Assembly: GCA_902593735.1 (NCBI GenBank)
Contig: CACJJL010000007.1
Location: 1 to 64,000, forward strand
DNA from: an uncultured SAR116 cluster alpha proteobacterium
GTDB lineage: Bacteria > Pseudomonadota > Alphaproteobacteria > Puniceispirillales > Marisalimonadaceae
Direction: 5' to 3'
Length of the DNA: 64,000 nucleotides
The translations under genes were made by a program, and so were the position numbers. Shown here piece after piece: positions 3,449 through 11,224 of this stretch (position 1 is the first letter of the stretch; each line of letters opens with the position of its first letter). A model generated the notes under the pieces. The model was not told the DNA's origin. It worked only from the letters and a program-made list of their open reading frames with translations, and searched no databases.

Positions 3449-4231
3449 ATGAATCATAACAATAAAAATGATTCTATTTCTTATGCTTCAAATAAATCTG
3501 AAACCATTATTTCAAAACAAGAATTAAAAGTAAATTCAATTTCAAAAACTTATAACAAAAGGAAAGTTGTAAATAAAGTTTCATTACAGTTAAATAAAGG
3601 AGAAGCTGTGGGACTTCTTGGCCCAAATGGGGCTGGGAAAACTACTTGCTTTTACATGATAGCAGGACTTATTGATACTGATGAGGGAGATATATTTTTA
3701 AACCAGGCACGTATAAATCAATTGCCAATGCATATACGTGCAAGAAGGGGAATTGGTTATTTACCACAAGAGTCTTCAATATTTAGAGGATTAACGGTTG
3801 AAGAAAATATTTTATCTGTTTTAGAAATCCAAAAATATGACAAAAACCACAAATACCAAATATTAGAAGAATTGTTAGCAGAATTTAATTTAAATAAAAT
3901 AAGAAACTCAAATGGTGCCATATTATCTGGAGGAGAGAGAAGAAGGACTGAAATAGCTAGAGCTTTGGCTTCAAACCCAAGTTACATTCTTCTTGATGAA
4001 CCACTTGCTGGTATAGATCCTATTGCCATTAATGATGTAAGAAATTTAATTAATAAATTGAAATCTAAAAATATAGGTGTACTTATTACGGATCATAATG
4101 TCAGAGAAACGTTAAGTATAGTTGATCGAGCATATATTCTTTTTGATGGTTCGGTAATAATGTCAGGTAATCCAAATGAAATTAAATTAGACAGAAGAGT
4201 CAGAGATGTATACCTCGGAAATAATTTTTAA
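3449..4231 (+). CDS. lptB: LPS export ABC transporter ATPase LptB
   Basis: About 260 residues from ATG 3449; TTG 3446 is also possible. It powers LPS extraction from the inner membrane with LptF and LptG, which are not in this window. Seen: Walker A GPNGAGKT near residue 60, Q-loop GYLPQE, signature LSGGERRR near 160, Walker B ILLDEPLAGIDP, and the H-loop in ITDHNV. The N-terminus has about 30 residues before the usual LptB start. The frame remains open upstream to the lptA stop, where AAAGGAG (3391-3397) lies six bases before an in-frame CTG at 3404; see findings. Confidence 0.93.
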   Translation: MNHNNKNDSISYASNKSETIISKQELKVNSISKTYNKRKVVNKVSLQLNKGEAVGLLGPNGAGKTTCFYMIAGLIDTDEGDIFLNQARINQLPMHIRARRGIGYLPQESSIFRGLTVEENILSVLEIQKYDKNHKYQILEELLAEFNLNKIRNSNGAILSGGERRRTEIARALASNPSYILLDEPLAGIDPIAINDVRNLINKLKSKNIGVLITDHNVRETLSIVDRAYILFDGSVIMSGNPNEIKLDRRVRDVYLGNNF

Positions 4232-4255
4232 AATCACTTTTTTTAAATTATAAGC

Positions 4256-4287
4256 TTGACTGATATTGAAGTTAATATTAATTAACT
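4256..4287 (+). promoter_or_regulatory. Candidate ptsN promoter with operator-like inverted repeat
   Basis: A TTGACT hexamer at 4256-4261 is followed by AT-rich -10-like sequence around 4276-4284. An inverted repeat AGTTAAT-ATTA-ATTAACT (4270-4287) sits in or on the -10 region, where a repressor could bind. The gap between lptB and ptsN is 94 bp, much longer than elsewhere in this operon. The -10 match is only moderate. Confidence 0.35.
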
Positions 4288-4325
4288 GACTCGAAATGTA
4301 TATTCCTAAAAATTAAAGGTTTAAT

Positions 4326-4794: not shown

Positions 4795-5772
4795 CTATTT
4801 GTTTACGTGGTTGAGTATTGGTTTTTTATCTACATAATTTAATATAGAGTTTATTGCTTCAGTCGCAATATCGTTAAAGCATTCATCTGTCCAACAAAGA
4901 GCATGCGGAGTTATAATAACATTCTGATATTTTAATAATTTACTAGCTGTTGAAAGAGGTTCTTTATCAGTTACATCCAAGCCAGCTCCAGCAATTTCTT
5001 GTTTCTCAAGCGCTCTTTCTAAATGAGTTTCATTAATCACAGGACCTCTTGATAAATTAAAGATATAAGCGCTTTTTTTCATATTTAAAAAAAAATCACT
5101 TTTAATCATACCTTTAGTTGAATTATCAAGATTACAAAGAATTACAATAAAGTCACTTTTACAAGCTAACTCAATCAGATCAACTTTAATAGCACCAATT
5201 TCTAATAACTGCTTTTCAGATTTAAATGGATCATGGGCTAAAATATTCTCAAAAAAGGGCTTTGACAACTCAATTGTCTCTGTACCTATACTACCAGCTC
5301 CTATAACTCCTAAAGTCTTTCGCGCTAAACCTGTACCCATAAAATTAGTTCTGTCGTTCCATTTACCATTCCTCACTAGAGAATCTTTTTGTAATAATTT
5401 ACCAGCAACTGCAAAAATCATGGTAAGGGCTGCAACAGCAACCGGTCTTCTTACAGCATTAGGGGTATTAGTAACTATTATATTTTTTTTTTTCATAGCT
5501 TCAATATCAACAGAGTCAAAACCAACACCAAATCTAGATATTATTTTTAACTTACAATTAGAATTAGATACACAATCAGAATTTGCTTTTGGTAAATTTA
5601 AAAGTATCGCATCATACTTTGAAGTCATTTCTGAATTTAATTCAATTATTGATTTGTCCATCCAAGATATTTCAATATCTTCTCTATCCTTTAAAAGTTT
5701 TAATGGACCCTTGCCAAAGCATGGTTCGTTACTGCTATTTAACAAATCTCCTGAAATTCCAACCTTAAACAT
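4795..5772 (-). CDS. D-isomer-specific 2-hydroxyacid dehydrogenase (SerA-like)
   Basis: 325 residues. It should reduce or oxidise a 2-oxo/2-hydroxy acid with NAD(H). Seen: the substrate-domain motif FGVGFDSVD (81-89), the nucleotide loop GVIGAGSIG (155-163), and the catalytic triad R242 (SRGPV), E271 (KEPL) and H290 (TPHALCW). It lacks the C-terminal ACT domain of full-length SerA, so the substrate may be phosphoglycerate or another hydroxyacid. It is the last gene of a three-gene minus-strand cluster with an HpcH/HpaI aldolase and a GhrA-like reductase, which suggests hydroxyacid catabolism rather than serine synthesis. Confidence 0.82.
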   Translation of the reverse strand: MFKVGISGDLLNSSNEPCFGKGPLKLLKDREDIEISWMDKSIIELNSEMTSKYDAILLNLPKANSDCVSNSNCKLKIISRFGVGFDSVDIEAMKKKNIIVTNTPNAVRRPVAVAALTMIFAVAGKLLQKDSLVRNGKWNDRTNFMGTGLARKTLGVIGAGSIGTETIELSKPFFENILAHDPFKSEKQLLEIGAIKVDLIELACKSDFIVILCNLDNSTKGMIKSDFFLNMKKSAYIFNLSRGPVINETHLERALEKQEIAGAGLDVTDKEPLSTASKLLKYQNVIITPHALCWTDECFNDIATEAINSILNYVDKKPILNHVNK

Positions 5773-5802
5773 AATTTTACTCCATCATTTTTGTTATTAA
5801 AC

Positions 5803-6549
5803 TTATTTTAAAATTTGAGAAATTGATCTAGATAAAATATTCATTTCTGTTCCAACCGCAATCATATTAAAACCAAGCTTAGAATATGTTTCTAATTCTT
5901 CTTTGTTATTTACCATTATTCCAACACTTTTGTTATAAAGTTTTGCAGCAGCAACAATTTCATTAATTGCATTTAGATAGATCTTTGAAGTAAAATCTCC
6001 AGGTATTCCTAAGAAGTTAGTTAAATCAAAATGTCCAACCCAAAGACAATCTACTCCGTTTATTGATGCTATTTCTCTCAGATTTTCTAAAGCTGTTTTA
6101 GTTTCAATCTGAATAATATTAATTAAAGAATTATTTGCTTTTTCAATATAAGATAAAGGGCTTTGATTTATATAATTATCATGTGCAAAACCAAATCCAG
6201 CACCACGTTTGCCTTGTGGTGGATATTTAGATGAATCAACAATTTTTATTACATCATCAGGTGTGTTCACCATTGGAACCATTATGCCTAAAGCACCAAG
6301 ATCTAAAGCTCTGGTCACATAATTATAATTTACTTGAGGTATTCTAATAAAAGGTGCTATTTTACTAGCATTAGATATAATTGCAAGGGTTTTAAATTGC
6401 TCTAGAGAAAGACCTCCATGCTCCATATCAAAAATTATAAATTCACAACCTGCATTTTTTAGTATAATTGGCATTCCTGGACTAAAAAATTCAAAAATCA
6501 TTGCACCACGAATTTGTCCATATGATGTAATCTTATTTTTCAGATCCAT
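5803..6549 (-). CDS. HpcH/HpaI-family class II aldolase
   Basis: 248 residues. The family cleaves or forms 4-hydroxy-2-oxo acids, releasing pyruvate, with a divalent metal. Expected active-site residues align closely with E. coli HpaI: H44 in FDMEHGG, R69 in IRIP, metal ligands E149 in QIET and D175 in GHFDLT. It sits 26 bp downstream of the GhrA-like gene and 30 bp upstream of the SerA-like gene on the same strand. A good Shine-Dalgarno (AAGGAGG on the minus strand) precedes the start. The real substrate cannot be read from sequence. Confidence 0.85.
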   Translation of the reverse strand: MDLKNKITSYGQIRGAMIFEFFSPGMPIILKNAGCEFIIFDMEHGGLSLEQFKTLAIISNASKIAPFIRIPQVNYNYVTRALDLGALGIMVPMVNTPDDVIKIVDSSKYPPQGKRGAGFGFAHDNYINQSPLSYIEKANNSLINIIQIETKTALENLREIASINGVDCLWVGHFDLTNFLGIPGDFTSKIYLNAINEIVAAAKLYNKSVGIMVNNKEELETYSKLGFNMIAVGTEMNILSRSISQILK

Positions 6550-7573: not shown

Positions 7574-8179
7574 TTGATAATGGTGGACTATTTGTACAAA
7601 TATTGGAATACCAATTATTATCCATTGTTAAAATTTAAAGAACACCTTAAGACCGCTTTTATCTCCAAAAAATTCATTACAATAAAGAGTTATAAAAGGA
7701 AACTTTATCACCATACAACTATCAAAATAAAAAAGTCAATAATACTCAATTGTAATCAACTAATAGCTGTACAACTTGTCGCTTAAGGAAAAAAAGATAA
7801 ATTTATTTCAGAACATTTAAATATGCCTGAAGAAACCGTCTCTCATTGGAGAAAAAAACCAGAATTCATCACTTCAGTCAATATGGTCCTTAATCAATTA
7901 AGATATTTCACACAACAAAAAATGTGAAATGTTTTAATTTTATTATTAGAAATTCTTGAAAAAAAATTAATCAAAGGAAATAATTCAGTAAATACAAATC
8001 TAGCCTTTAAAAATTGTGCAAAATTATAAATTAGTAGTTTAATTAATGAAAAAATAGCATCAGAAAGTTCACAAGATAAAGAAAAAAACTTTTTAAGAAA
8101 CAATTTGATGAAATATTTTAATGTTAATATTCTTTATGTGCGTAAGTATTTATTAATTATATTTATATCATTTTTTTAA
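7574..8179 (+). pseudogene. Decayed helix-turn-helix (terminase-small-subunit-like) protein
   Basis: One frame reads through as protein-like sequence but is broken by TAA 7784-7786, TGA 7925-7927 and TAA 8027-8029. Around the first stop, from about 7745, it reads LNCNQLIAVQLVA, stop, GKKDKFISEHLNMPEETV and SHWRKKPEFITSV. This has the shape of the HTH seen in phBC6A51-type and phage terminase small-subunit proteins (Q..AI.LLA.GK....IA..L...E.TV..WRK.PEF). The downstream part is charged and helical and ends at TAA 8177-8179. The first 50 or so codons (from GTG or ATG near 7574) are not recognised. The family call is by eye, and the decay is seen directly. Confidence 0.6.
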
Positions 8180-8507
8180 AACTGTTCTAATGACTTCTTG
8201 GAATTATATAACACTAAATAAACGTTCAACATTTTGAAACTAGCCCTCTTTACAGGTGGCAACACCCTGCTACAATGCTTTTTCAATCTTTAATTCTATT
8301 AAATTTTCTTAATCTCTGTCTCAAACATGCTTTAAGTACCTGTTTTTTGGTTACTACATTATTCTAGGATATTAATTCACAAATAGCATATGTATATATC
8401 GATTTGATTAAAATAAATTATCAATTATAATTTTAATGATTTGTTGTTGATATTATATTTGCTAGTTAAATTTTGATGTTAATTTAGCTTAGCATTTAGC
8501 TTATAAC
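8180..8507. other. Non-coding AT-rich stretch inside the decaying patch
   Basis: About 330 bases between the HTH pseudogene and the end of the sulfotransferase gene. No reading frame of useful length, RNA gene or repeat is evident. A locally GC-richer piece near 8240-8280 breaks the AT-rich background, and a short TTCAA/TTTGAA inverted pair is near 8225. It may be remnant DNA of the same decayed accessory region. Confidence 0.5.
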
Positions 8508-10358
8508 TCATGGCGACAGTAAATCATCAAATGCTCCATTAAGGTATGGTTGATATTTCTTCCATTCCTCCGAACTACCTCGATAAACTTTTTTTCTAAT
8601 CTGAAGGTTGGACGCTGTTCTTACACTTCTCTTATTATTTTGAGGCGAGAGGCATTTTTTGTCCCAATTTAAGCCTAGATATTCAATTAGCCGTCGTGTC
8701 TCACTATCTTGATTAACTGTTAGTAGTTCGTAATCAAGTTTGTAGATCCTTTTACTGAGCGTGTTTGTCCAAAAATCCATCAGGTTTTCATACAATTTAT
8801 GATAACTAATTACATCATTAAGCGCGTAACTATAGCCCAAATCTTTTGACACAAAATATCGCTTATAATTCGCCCAACATACGGCAGCTGGGTTTCTTTT
8901 TACGTATATTATTTTAGCCTCAGGAAACGCTGCAGCAAGCAATCCTATAAAACGGAAGTTTTGTGGCATCTTGTCTGTAACAATTAAATTTCCTTTAGAA
9001 ACATTATGCAGTTTATTTAGATAGTTATGACGGAAATCGAGTAAAGATTCTTTATTTACTTTAGTAATACCAGTTGCAATAGCTCCACCAAATTGAGCTA
9101 CAAAATTTATCTCTCCTGCTCCAGTTACTTTCGAGTGAGAAGAAATTATTTGTTCAACTAAAGTTGTACCAGATCGAGGCATACCAACAATAAAAATTGG
9201 GATTAGTTTCTTTGACAATTTGTCAGGTTCTAATGAACTGTTTTCTATTTTTGGATAGCTAAATTTAAGCTGTTTAAAAAGTTTTAAATCTTGACTGATA
9301 TTGTAGTTCAAAAGCTTTTTACGTAGCATATTACCCTCTCTATAATGGTTGTACGCTTGCTCAAAATTTCCTAAATCCTCACAAGCTTTGGCTAAACCAA
9401 AGTTAATATGGCAACGTTGCTCCTCTGAAATATTTTTATCAAGATATAGCTCTTGCATTTTTGAATAATGTTCATCTTCTCGATTAAATTTTCTCATTAA
9501 TGTAATATGCCTATGGGCTTCGGCATAATCAGGTTTCAATACTGTCGCTTTTGCGTAACTTGCTAGAGCTTCGTCTAATTTTCCTAGTTCTTGAAGTGTA
9601 ATACCCAGGTTGTTGTGGGCTAGAGCAAAGTCGGGTTTCAACGATATTGCTTGTCTGTAGCTCACTAAAGCTTCGTCTAATCTTCCAAGTTCTTGGAGCG
9701 AGGTACCCAAGTTGATGTGGGCTTAGGCATAGTCAGGTTTCAACATTATTGCTTTTTTTTGACTTGCTACAGCTTCGTCTAATCTTCCTAGTTCTTGAAG
9801 CGAGACACCCAAATTGTAGTAGGCTAGGGCTGAGTTAGGTTTCAATGATATTGCTTGTGTGTAACTTGCTACAGCTTCATCTAATCTTCCTAGTTCTTGG
9901 AGCGCTGTACCCAAGTTACTGTGGGCTTCGACATAGTTAGGTTTCAATGATATTGCTTGCATGTAACTTGCTACAGCTTCGTCTAATCTTCCTAGTTCTA
10001 GAAGCGTGTTACCCAAGTTGTAGTGGGCTAAGACAAAGTCTGGTTTCAATGATATTGCATGTATGTAACTTGCTACAGCTTCGTCTAATCTTCCCAGTTC
10101 TAGAAGCGTGTTAGCCAAGTTGTTGTGGGCTTCAGCATCTTGAGGAGATAATGCGACTGCCCTCTGATTAGCAAATACTGCATCCGAATTTCTGCCTGTT
10201 GCCCCAAATACTGCGCCTAAAACTTTCCAGGCAAATTGATGCTTTGGAAAATCTTGGCTAATGGAAGTAGCCAGCTTTTCAGCATCATCTAACCGTCCAG
10301 CCTGATAGTGTTCTAACAGATTACTTAATTGTTGCTGAGATGGGCTTTCATATTCCAT
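8508..10358 (-). pseudogene. TPR-repeat sulfotransferase, interrupted by one in-frame stop
   Basis: A single 617-codon frame with one TAA at 9723-9725, in codon context GCC-TAA-GCC where sister repeats read GCC-GAA-GCC. N-terminus: TPR array with repeats of the form NLG..LQELGRLDEAVASY..AISLKP. C-terminus: a sulfotransferase domain with the 5'-phosphosulfate loop PIFIVGMPRSGTT and the 3'-phosphate motif VKRNPAAVCWANYKR. Intact relatives transfer sulfate from PAPS to a surface or secreted target that is unknown. As written, translation ends after 211 residues. The downstream 400-codon part could start at an internal TTG, but without an obvious Shine-Dalgarno. The TPR part is visibly richer in G+C (27 of 60 bases at 9781-9840) than the flanks, suggesting transfer. 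Confidence 0.85.
9567..10178 (-). repeat. Six tandem 102-bp repeats encoding TPR units
   Basis: The hexamer AGCTTC of the unit recurs at 9567, 9669, 9771, 9873, 9975 and 10077, exactly 102 bp apart (34 codons, one TPR). The units share long identical blocks at DNA level, such as CTAATCTTCC and GGTTTCAA, so unequal crossing-over or slippage could add or remove whole units in frame. The nonsense codon lies in one of these units. Confidence 0.93.
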
Positions 10359-10509
10359 TATTTTATTATCAGATAAATTATATAAAATTCAAATTTAAAT
10401 TTAAATTCTTTGTAATCTAAACATTTATAAATTTGTTATAAGCCTTATTTAATAAAAAATGTATCAAAATTGAAAATGAAGGTTAAAATCTTATAGATTA
10501 TTTGAGAAA

Positions 10510-10722
10510 ATGAGTGGAATAAAAAAATATCAATTTAAAAAAATCAATTTTTTTAGAGACCTTTCCGTACATTGGTCTTTCTAAAACAACGAAGCTACAC
10601 TGAGCTTTTACAAATTAATATTACCTGATGGAATTTCGTATGCATTAGATGAGAAAATTACAACATCCTAAATGTCTAAGCATTTTGATGTTTACAGCAA
10701 AACATTGAACAGAAAGATAATC
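10510..10722 (+). pseudogene. Decayed ORF of unknown family abutting tRNA-Ala
   Basis: From ATG 10510 one frame reads MSGIKKYQFKKINFF onward, with in-frame TAA at 10582-10584 and 10669-10671. After the second stop it continues with MSKHFDVYSKTLNRKI and runs into the 3' end of tRNA-Ala. The composition is protein-like and the last part resembles an HTH, but I do not recognise the family. It could be chance coding-like sequence; the context (next to a tRNA, beside two other broken genes) favours a remnant of an inserted element. The preceding 150 bases (10359-10509) are AT-rich with no feature seen and probably hold the sulfotransferase promoter. Confidence 0.35.
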
Positions 10723-10798
10723 TGGTGGAGCTAAGGGGGTTCGAACCCCTGACCTCTACACTGCCAGTGTAGCGCTCTCCCAACTGAGCTATAGCCCC
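10723..10798 (-). tRNA. tRNA-Ala (anticodon GGC)
   Basis: A complete 76-base cloverleaf on the minus strand. The 5' acceptor arm GGGGCTA pairs with TAGCTCC, and ACCA is encoded at the 3' end. D-arm GCTC...GAGC, anticodon loop CTGGCAG with GGC at 10765-10763, and T-loop TTCGAAC are all present. It starts 10 bases after the stop of the FYDLN gene, so the two are probably co-transcribed. Its 3' end faces the decaying accessory patch. Confidence 0.97.
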
Positions 10799-10807
10799 AT
10801 TAAAACT

Positions 10808-11224
10808 CTAATTCTTATCTTCGTCACTAATTTCTACACTTACTTCATCTTCCCCTTCAAAATCATCTTCTTCTGATATTTCATTAGCGTCAATAAAAGA
10901 AATATCATCATCCAAGACAATATTATCTTCAGTCATTTCATTCTGTTCATCTTTATTGATTTCAATCAAATCATCATCCTCAGAATTATCTTCGTTCTCA
11001 GTATCAATTTCAATTTCATCTAAATCACTAATATCATCTGAAACATCTTTGTTGCTTTCAACGATAGATTTTGGTGATAAACTTTTTTTTCTACCACTTA
11101 AGTAAAAATCAGGATCAAATTTTGTACCGCATGAAGGACAGATAATAGGAGATTTATTTAAATCATAGTACTTTAAATTACATGATAAACAAATTCTTTT
11201 TATACCCCACTCAGGTTTGGCCAT
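10808..11224 (-). CDS. FYDLN acid domain protein (TIGR02300 family)
   Basis: 138 residues. The N-terminus has two CxxC pairs (C12/C15 and C29/C32) around the family motif, here KYYDLNKSPIICPSCG, which would bind zinc. The second half is low-complexity and extremely acidic (Asp/Glu runs), as in the family. Function is unknown; the family is almost confined to alphaproteobacteria. It is divergent from aroA, as in many relatives, and followed by tRNA-Ala. The minus-strand Shine-Dalgarno GGAG precedes ATG 11224. Confidence 0.9.
   Translation of the reverse strand: MAKPEWGIKRICLSCNLKYYDLNKSPIICPSCGTKFDPDFYLSGRKKSLSPKSIVESNKDVSDDISDLDEIEIDTENEDNSEDDDLIEINKDEQNEMTEDNIVLDDDISFIDANEISEEDDFEGEDEVSVEISDEDKN

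Follow-up and report, generated by a model that had tools for sequence, protein, structure and literature searches.

A TPR-sulfotransferase gene with a probably young internal stop codon in a cassette beside tRNA-Ala(GGC) of a SAR116 genome

A 64,000-nucleotide stretch of DNA from an uncultured SAR116 cluster alphaproteobacterium (hereafter the window), located on contig 7 of a 1.81 Mb assembly that comprises 65 contigs and is 84% complete, carries a TPR-sulfotransferase gene interrupted by a single stop codon. We conclude, with a probability of about 0.64, that what we see is a null allele of recent origin, in a horizontally acquired accessory cassette gene next to tRNA-Ala(GGC) caught in early decay, and not a demonstrated on/off switch.

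Results

The reverse strand of positions 8508–10358 reads as a TPR-sulfotransferase frame of 617 codons, recognized by translation and Pfam matches, with one internal stop, a TAA at codon 212 (9723–9725). Translation thus bears out the sequence-only reading, an earlier annotation of this DNA made without database searches, which had described a frame intact over 617 codons except for this TAA. As the other two frames of the same region contain 59 and 60 stops, the long frame is not due to chance. The part 5' of the stop encodes an N-terminal region (10140–10358), conserved with the related copies L051 and L053, and four TPR units. On the 3' side of the stop, an open frame (8508–9710) whose nearest possible restart is the TTG at 9710 encodes what remains of unit 5, then unit 6 and the whole Sulfotransfer_3 domain; Pfam TPR repeats match both ahead of and past the stop. 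TPR array and domain therefore do not share one open frame in the window, while they do in the intact homologues L051 and L052, relative to which the window frame is disrupted; the window copy is a broken member of the TPR-sulfotransferase family and a probable pseudogene.

The array (9528–10139, reverse strand) consists of six 102-bp units in exact register (units 1–6 at 10038–10139, 9936–10037, 9834–9935, 9732–9833, 9630–9731 and 9528–9629) with pairwise DNA identities of 74–87%, and an array of period 102 was also found by TRF. Six units in perfect register had been proposed before, in a register that is 39 bp off ours and equally valid. The stop lies in unit 5, and the codons at its position in units 1–6 are GAA, TTA, GAA, CTA, TAA and CTA. 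Comparison between units confirmed that the TAA is one base change away from the GAA of sister units; it is equally one change away from TTA.

Two ways around the stop were rejected. Slippage on an A8 run shortly upstream (9753–9760, reverse strand) would not rescue the product, as both other frames soon reach stops. Stop-codon reassignment or readthrough does not fit the other genes of the window, which end normally at TAA, TAG and TGA; none of them in the 64 kb is split like the TPR-sulfotransferase gene, and neighbors that share a frame are ordinary adjacent genes.

The C-terminal region (8511–9500, reverse strand) contains an intact Sulfotransfer_3 domain (PF13469; Pfam match at 8661–9200), which aligns with positions 1–215 of the 216-position profile (E 7e-40) and so covers the whole domain. 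Its 5'-PSB loop is present, with GMPRSGTTLVEQIISSH conserved and the motif PRSGTT kept. The domain is 83–84% identical to that of L051, from the SAR116 single cell AG-914-E17 (genome G074, same family as the window genome), and 79% identical to those of L052 and L053. Among solved structures, the catalytic part best matches SULT4A1, though weakly (E 1e-4). Wider sampling of Alphaproteobacteria yielded only distant relatives outside the order, and a virus-carried copy was rejected, as no relative was present in viral_contigs. Judged by the domain, the enzyme might sulfate a surface component or a peptide; the surface-modification role proposed in the sequence-only reading is guesswork based on what the domain is called. 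We found no characterized TPR-Sulfotransfer_3 member and, in the literature on TPR-sulfotransferases in SAR116, nothing on point.

The domain was under purifying selection until recently. Its dN/dS is 0.22 between the window and both L051 and L053 and 0.15 against L052, and lineage-unique domain changes (nonsynonymous/synonymous) number 20/20 in the window, 20/26 in the intact L051 and 33/33 in L053. In addition, the N-terminal region has a dN/dS of 0.18 between the two stop-bearing copies, window and L053. Relaxed selection was thus not detectable in the window lineage, either in the domain (dN/dS 0.15–0.22) or in the N-terminal part, as expected if the lesion is very young. Since neither side of the stop shows relaxation, either the mutation happened recently on this scale or the gene product is still of use. 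An estimate of dN/dS on the domain had been suggested as a check on the proposal of a young mutation, with which these values agree.

The gene lies in a segment (7588–10722) that is missing from the relatives L134, L138 and L145 and that stands between tRNA-Ala(GGC) (10723–10798, reverse strand) and a 2-hydroxyacid dehydrogenase gene. In the four relatives compared, homology breaks off where the tRNA ends, at 10723 or, for L132, at 10717; it starts again at 7587 in three of them and at 7514 in L132. Judged from these alignments, the segment is an insertion relative to the compared relatives, or would have been lost in all of them. Across 29 other loci of the order that share the conserved neighbor gene (10808–11224) and tRNA-Ala(GGC), no TPR units were found near the tRNA, and the dehydrogenase gene directly follows tRNA-Ala in 13 of the loci displayed in that orientation. 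In a same-genus genome (L149/L204; G017:C2), another open frame, not the dehydrogenase gene, directly follows tRNA-Ala, which makes this site a possible hot spot for insertions.

The cassette gene is situated downstream of tRNA-Ala(GGC), its conserved neighbor, and in the same orientation in the window, L051 and L053, in the last of these only 13 bp away. The cassettes beside the tRNA lie within 7588–10722 in the window, 3527–7405 in L051 and 5026–7005 in L053. A small P-loop kinase-like gene on the opposite strand (3537–4322) lies between tRNA-Ala and the cassette in L051; it matches APS kinase/AAA and, weakly, cytidylyltransferase. Genes around the cassette in the L053 genome are unrelated to those of the window. 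Window and L051 have a block in common (8144–10474, reverse strand; 8496–10468 with L053), which would represent the transferred cassette. While the synonymous-site difference (pS) between the window and L051 is 0.30 for the domain, it is 0.56–0.67 for four flanking genes, with protein identities of 45–61%. Because the domain is far less diverged than the flanking genes, the comparison provides clear evidence that the cassette was horizontally transferred.

A decayed 5'-end remnant of a second TPR gene (8205–8295, reverse strand; IELKIEKAL*QGVATCKEG*FQN) follows the cassette gene, as one also does in L051 (7202–7350), and is broken differently in each genome. The decayed state of this adjoining gene speaks for the reading of early decay. 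No integrase was recognized among the genes examined in L051, L053 and the window segment, and no tRNA-end repeat or duplication was found at the cassette site. We therefore rejected an integrase-borne island and recognized neither of these marks of a tycheposon or integrative element in the cassette.

We next consider 33 relatives, including the window, with a domain identity of at least 50% and an assessable array. Six of them bear array lesions and none bears a domain lesion. Apart from the window, these are L053, with one stop at the same unit codon as in the window, but in unit 3; L054, with a TGA in unit 2 and a TAA in unit 8; the Rhodobacteraceae copy L072, with an in-frame TAG and a TAA in the array (5533–5679) and an intact domain; and L058 and L068, with array frameshifts. 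Although the array constitutes only 40–42% of the sites open to lesions, it contains all nine lesions of these close relatives (P about 0.0004 by length), all six nonsense codons (P 0.004 by opportunity) and, with each broken gene counted once, six breaks out of six (P 0.006). Distant relatives carry array lesions in L115 and L035 and domain lesions in L202 (TGA) and L203 (frameshift), giving 11 array versus 2 domain lesions for close and distant relatives together (P 0.002); the distant domain lesions thus weaken the array bias but do not remove it.

For comparison, we inspected 48 control TPR arrays, which together comprise 333 units and stem from draft genomes of the order; one of them carried a lesion. 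This array, L197 (G055:C26, position 708), belongs to the SAR116 order and has an in-frame TAG between units and an unidentified C-terminal domain. Broken arrays are modestly more frequent in the sulfotransferase family than among the controls (6/33 versus 1/48), with P 0.017 for any lesion and P 0.15, not significant, for nonsense codons alone, and the lesion tests were devised post hoc, once the pattern had been seen. Only the restriction of lesions to arrays in close relatives would not be expected from plain decay, as the domain should be hit too.

Such a restriction would be expected if the split gene still worked, with translation restarting at TTG 9710 or ATG 9497; the resulting sulfotransferase would be shorter, with two or no TPR units, and array lesions would be tolerated. 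The intact domains next to six broken arrays are in line with this idea, as is the TTG that lies five codons past the stop in both the window and L053. However, every candidate restart lacks a preceding Shine-Dalgarno-like sequence, L054 has not retained the ATG with which the domain begins in the window, and the NNLG/NNMG consensus of TPR units itself predicts start-like codons. Moreover, the N-terminal part was conserved as well, and intact relatives at 50% identity or above all have at least five units. We therefore consider a functional restart unlikely.

The stop might also be an amplification or assembly error, given that template damage in single cells can be fixed as G-to-T changes and that repeats assemble badly. 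Three nonsense changes (window, L053 and unit 8 of L054) can be read as G to T, and in L058 and L068, which come from MAGs, the frame is shifted by one base. L053, L054 and L072 bear isolate codes typical of single-amplified genomes, which they presumably are; the records are silent on it. An artefact is nevertheless improbable, considering that the window holds no second split gene, that the control arrays, likewise from draft genomes, yielded a single lesion, that short-read misassembly does not normally create new codons, and that A to T is the best reading of the change in L054 unit 2.

According to the sequence-only reading, recombination between flanking units could delete exactly one unit together with the stop, making the locus an on/off or length-variable gene. 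The in-register geometry allows such an event, but that it happens readily is not supported. The exact repeats at which a crossover would remove the stop are at most 18 bp long, which is short for RecA recombination, for which the minimum is about 23–27 bp in E. coli. A full-length MutS frame is present in the assembly; recA was not found, which carries little weight at 84% completeness. The repeats of true phase-variable genes are as a rule identical or almost identical. The window units, at 74–87% identity and with a usable tract of 18 bp, are not near-identical and would not be expected to recombine often. Because of the short repeat and the presence of MutS, reversible switching in the window array is possible but poorly supported.

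Length variation, the other part of that proposal, was found among relatives: the closest ones have 6, 8, 6 and 10 units. The stop and unit number are thus not fixed, L051 and L052 being intact and L053 having a different stop, and relaxed selection on the domain, which together with such fixation would have spoken for a simply dead gene, was not seen. Arrays of this family do recombine, as the L054 array (4947–5970) contains a recent duplication of a 5-unit (510 bp) block in which four of the five unit pairs share 95–101 of 102 bases. It bears two different stops, one per copy; as both differ between the copies, they most likely postdate the duplication. Mean unit identity is 79.9% within the window and within L053 versus 76.5% between them, while L051 units show no such excess (73.0 within versus 73.9 between), and concerted evolution among units thus appears weak.

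Varying array length, the L054 duplication with its later stops, the within-gene similarity of units and the confinement of close-relative lesions to arrays could all be accommodated by a contingency locus, in which the array switches reversibly or varies in length, and in which nonsense units arise and disappear again through recombination or gene conversion between units, leaving the gene off in some cells. We consider this quite unlikely, given the divergence of the window units and the other obstacles to recombination described above, the weakness of concerted evolution and its absence in L051, and the presence of two stops each in L054 and L072, which would be hard to reverse in one step; with one genome per species, no switching event was observed and frequent switching is unsupported. 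It is very unlikely that arrays of the whole family act as recurrent reversible off-switches, with nonsense units purged by recombination and a standing off fraction with intact domains in many marine lineages. The literature offered nothing on point on nonsense codons in repeat arrays as switches.

Discussion

Early decay of an acquired accessory gene explains the data more simply than switching. We suggest that the horizontally transferred TPR-sulfotransferase cassette was inserted next to tRNA-Ala(GGC), and that one recent substitution, which probably turned GAA into TAA, then created a null allele in the sampled cell. Translation would end after 211 codons, ahead of the catalytic domain, and no full-length enzyme would be made. 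The window allele is thus probably non-functional and heading for loss, while the family would persist through the continued spread of functional copies to new hosts as resident copies break. Loss of the damaged unit is conceivable, given that array length changes over evolutionary time, but is not needed to explain the data. Relative to the sequence-only reading, what is new is the horizontal cassette at tRNA-Ala, the differing lesions in relatives, the lack of relaxed selection and the change in array length.

If the window gene is only a young null allele, it adds to the cases in which streamlined marine bacteria rapidly gain, break and lose accessory genes, with the useful detail that transfer has recurred next to one tRNA gene. 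Should larger samples uphold the array bias, this would suggest either that truncation is tolerated or that a repeat-based switch exists which does not rely on short identical repeats.

The window gene has the domain order of the TPR-Sulfotransfer_3 fusion proteins of marine proteobacteria (PF13469 with N-terminal TPR), from which it differs by its internal stop. Phase-variable genes such as icaC of Staphylococcus aureus, off alleles of which occur in 9% of genomes and whose switching relies on frame-shifting slippage of 4 bp (PMC4117637), resemble the TPR-sulfotransferase family in having a repeat tract in the coding sequence and a minority of genomes in the off state. In the window, however, the units are 102 bp long, diverged and in frame, and the off state is due to a substitution. 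Flexible islands and tycheposons of pelagic bacteria have been described at tRNA genes (PMC10872708). While no integrase and no duplicated tRNA end were found at the window site, it shares with recent pseudogenes or null alleles in such islands a tRNA-adjacent insertion, a patchy distribution, a low divergence compared to the host background and an older gene remnant alongside.
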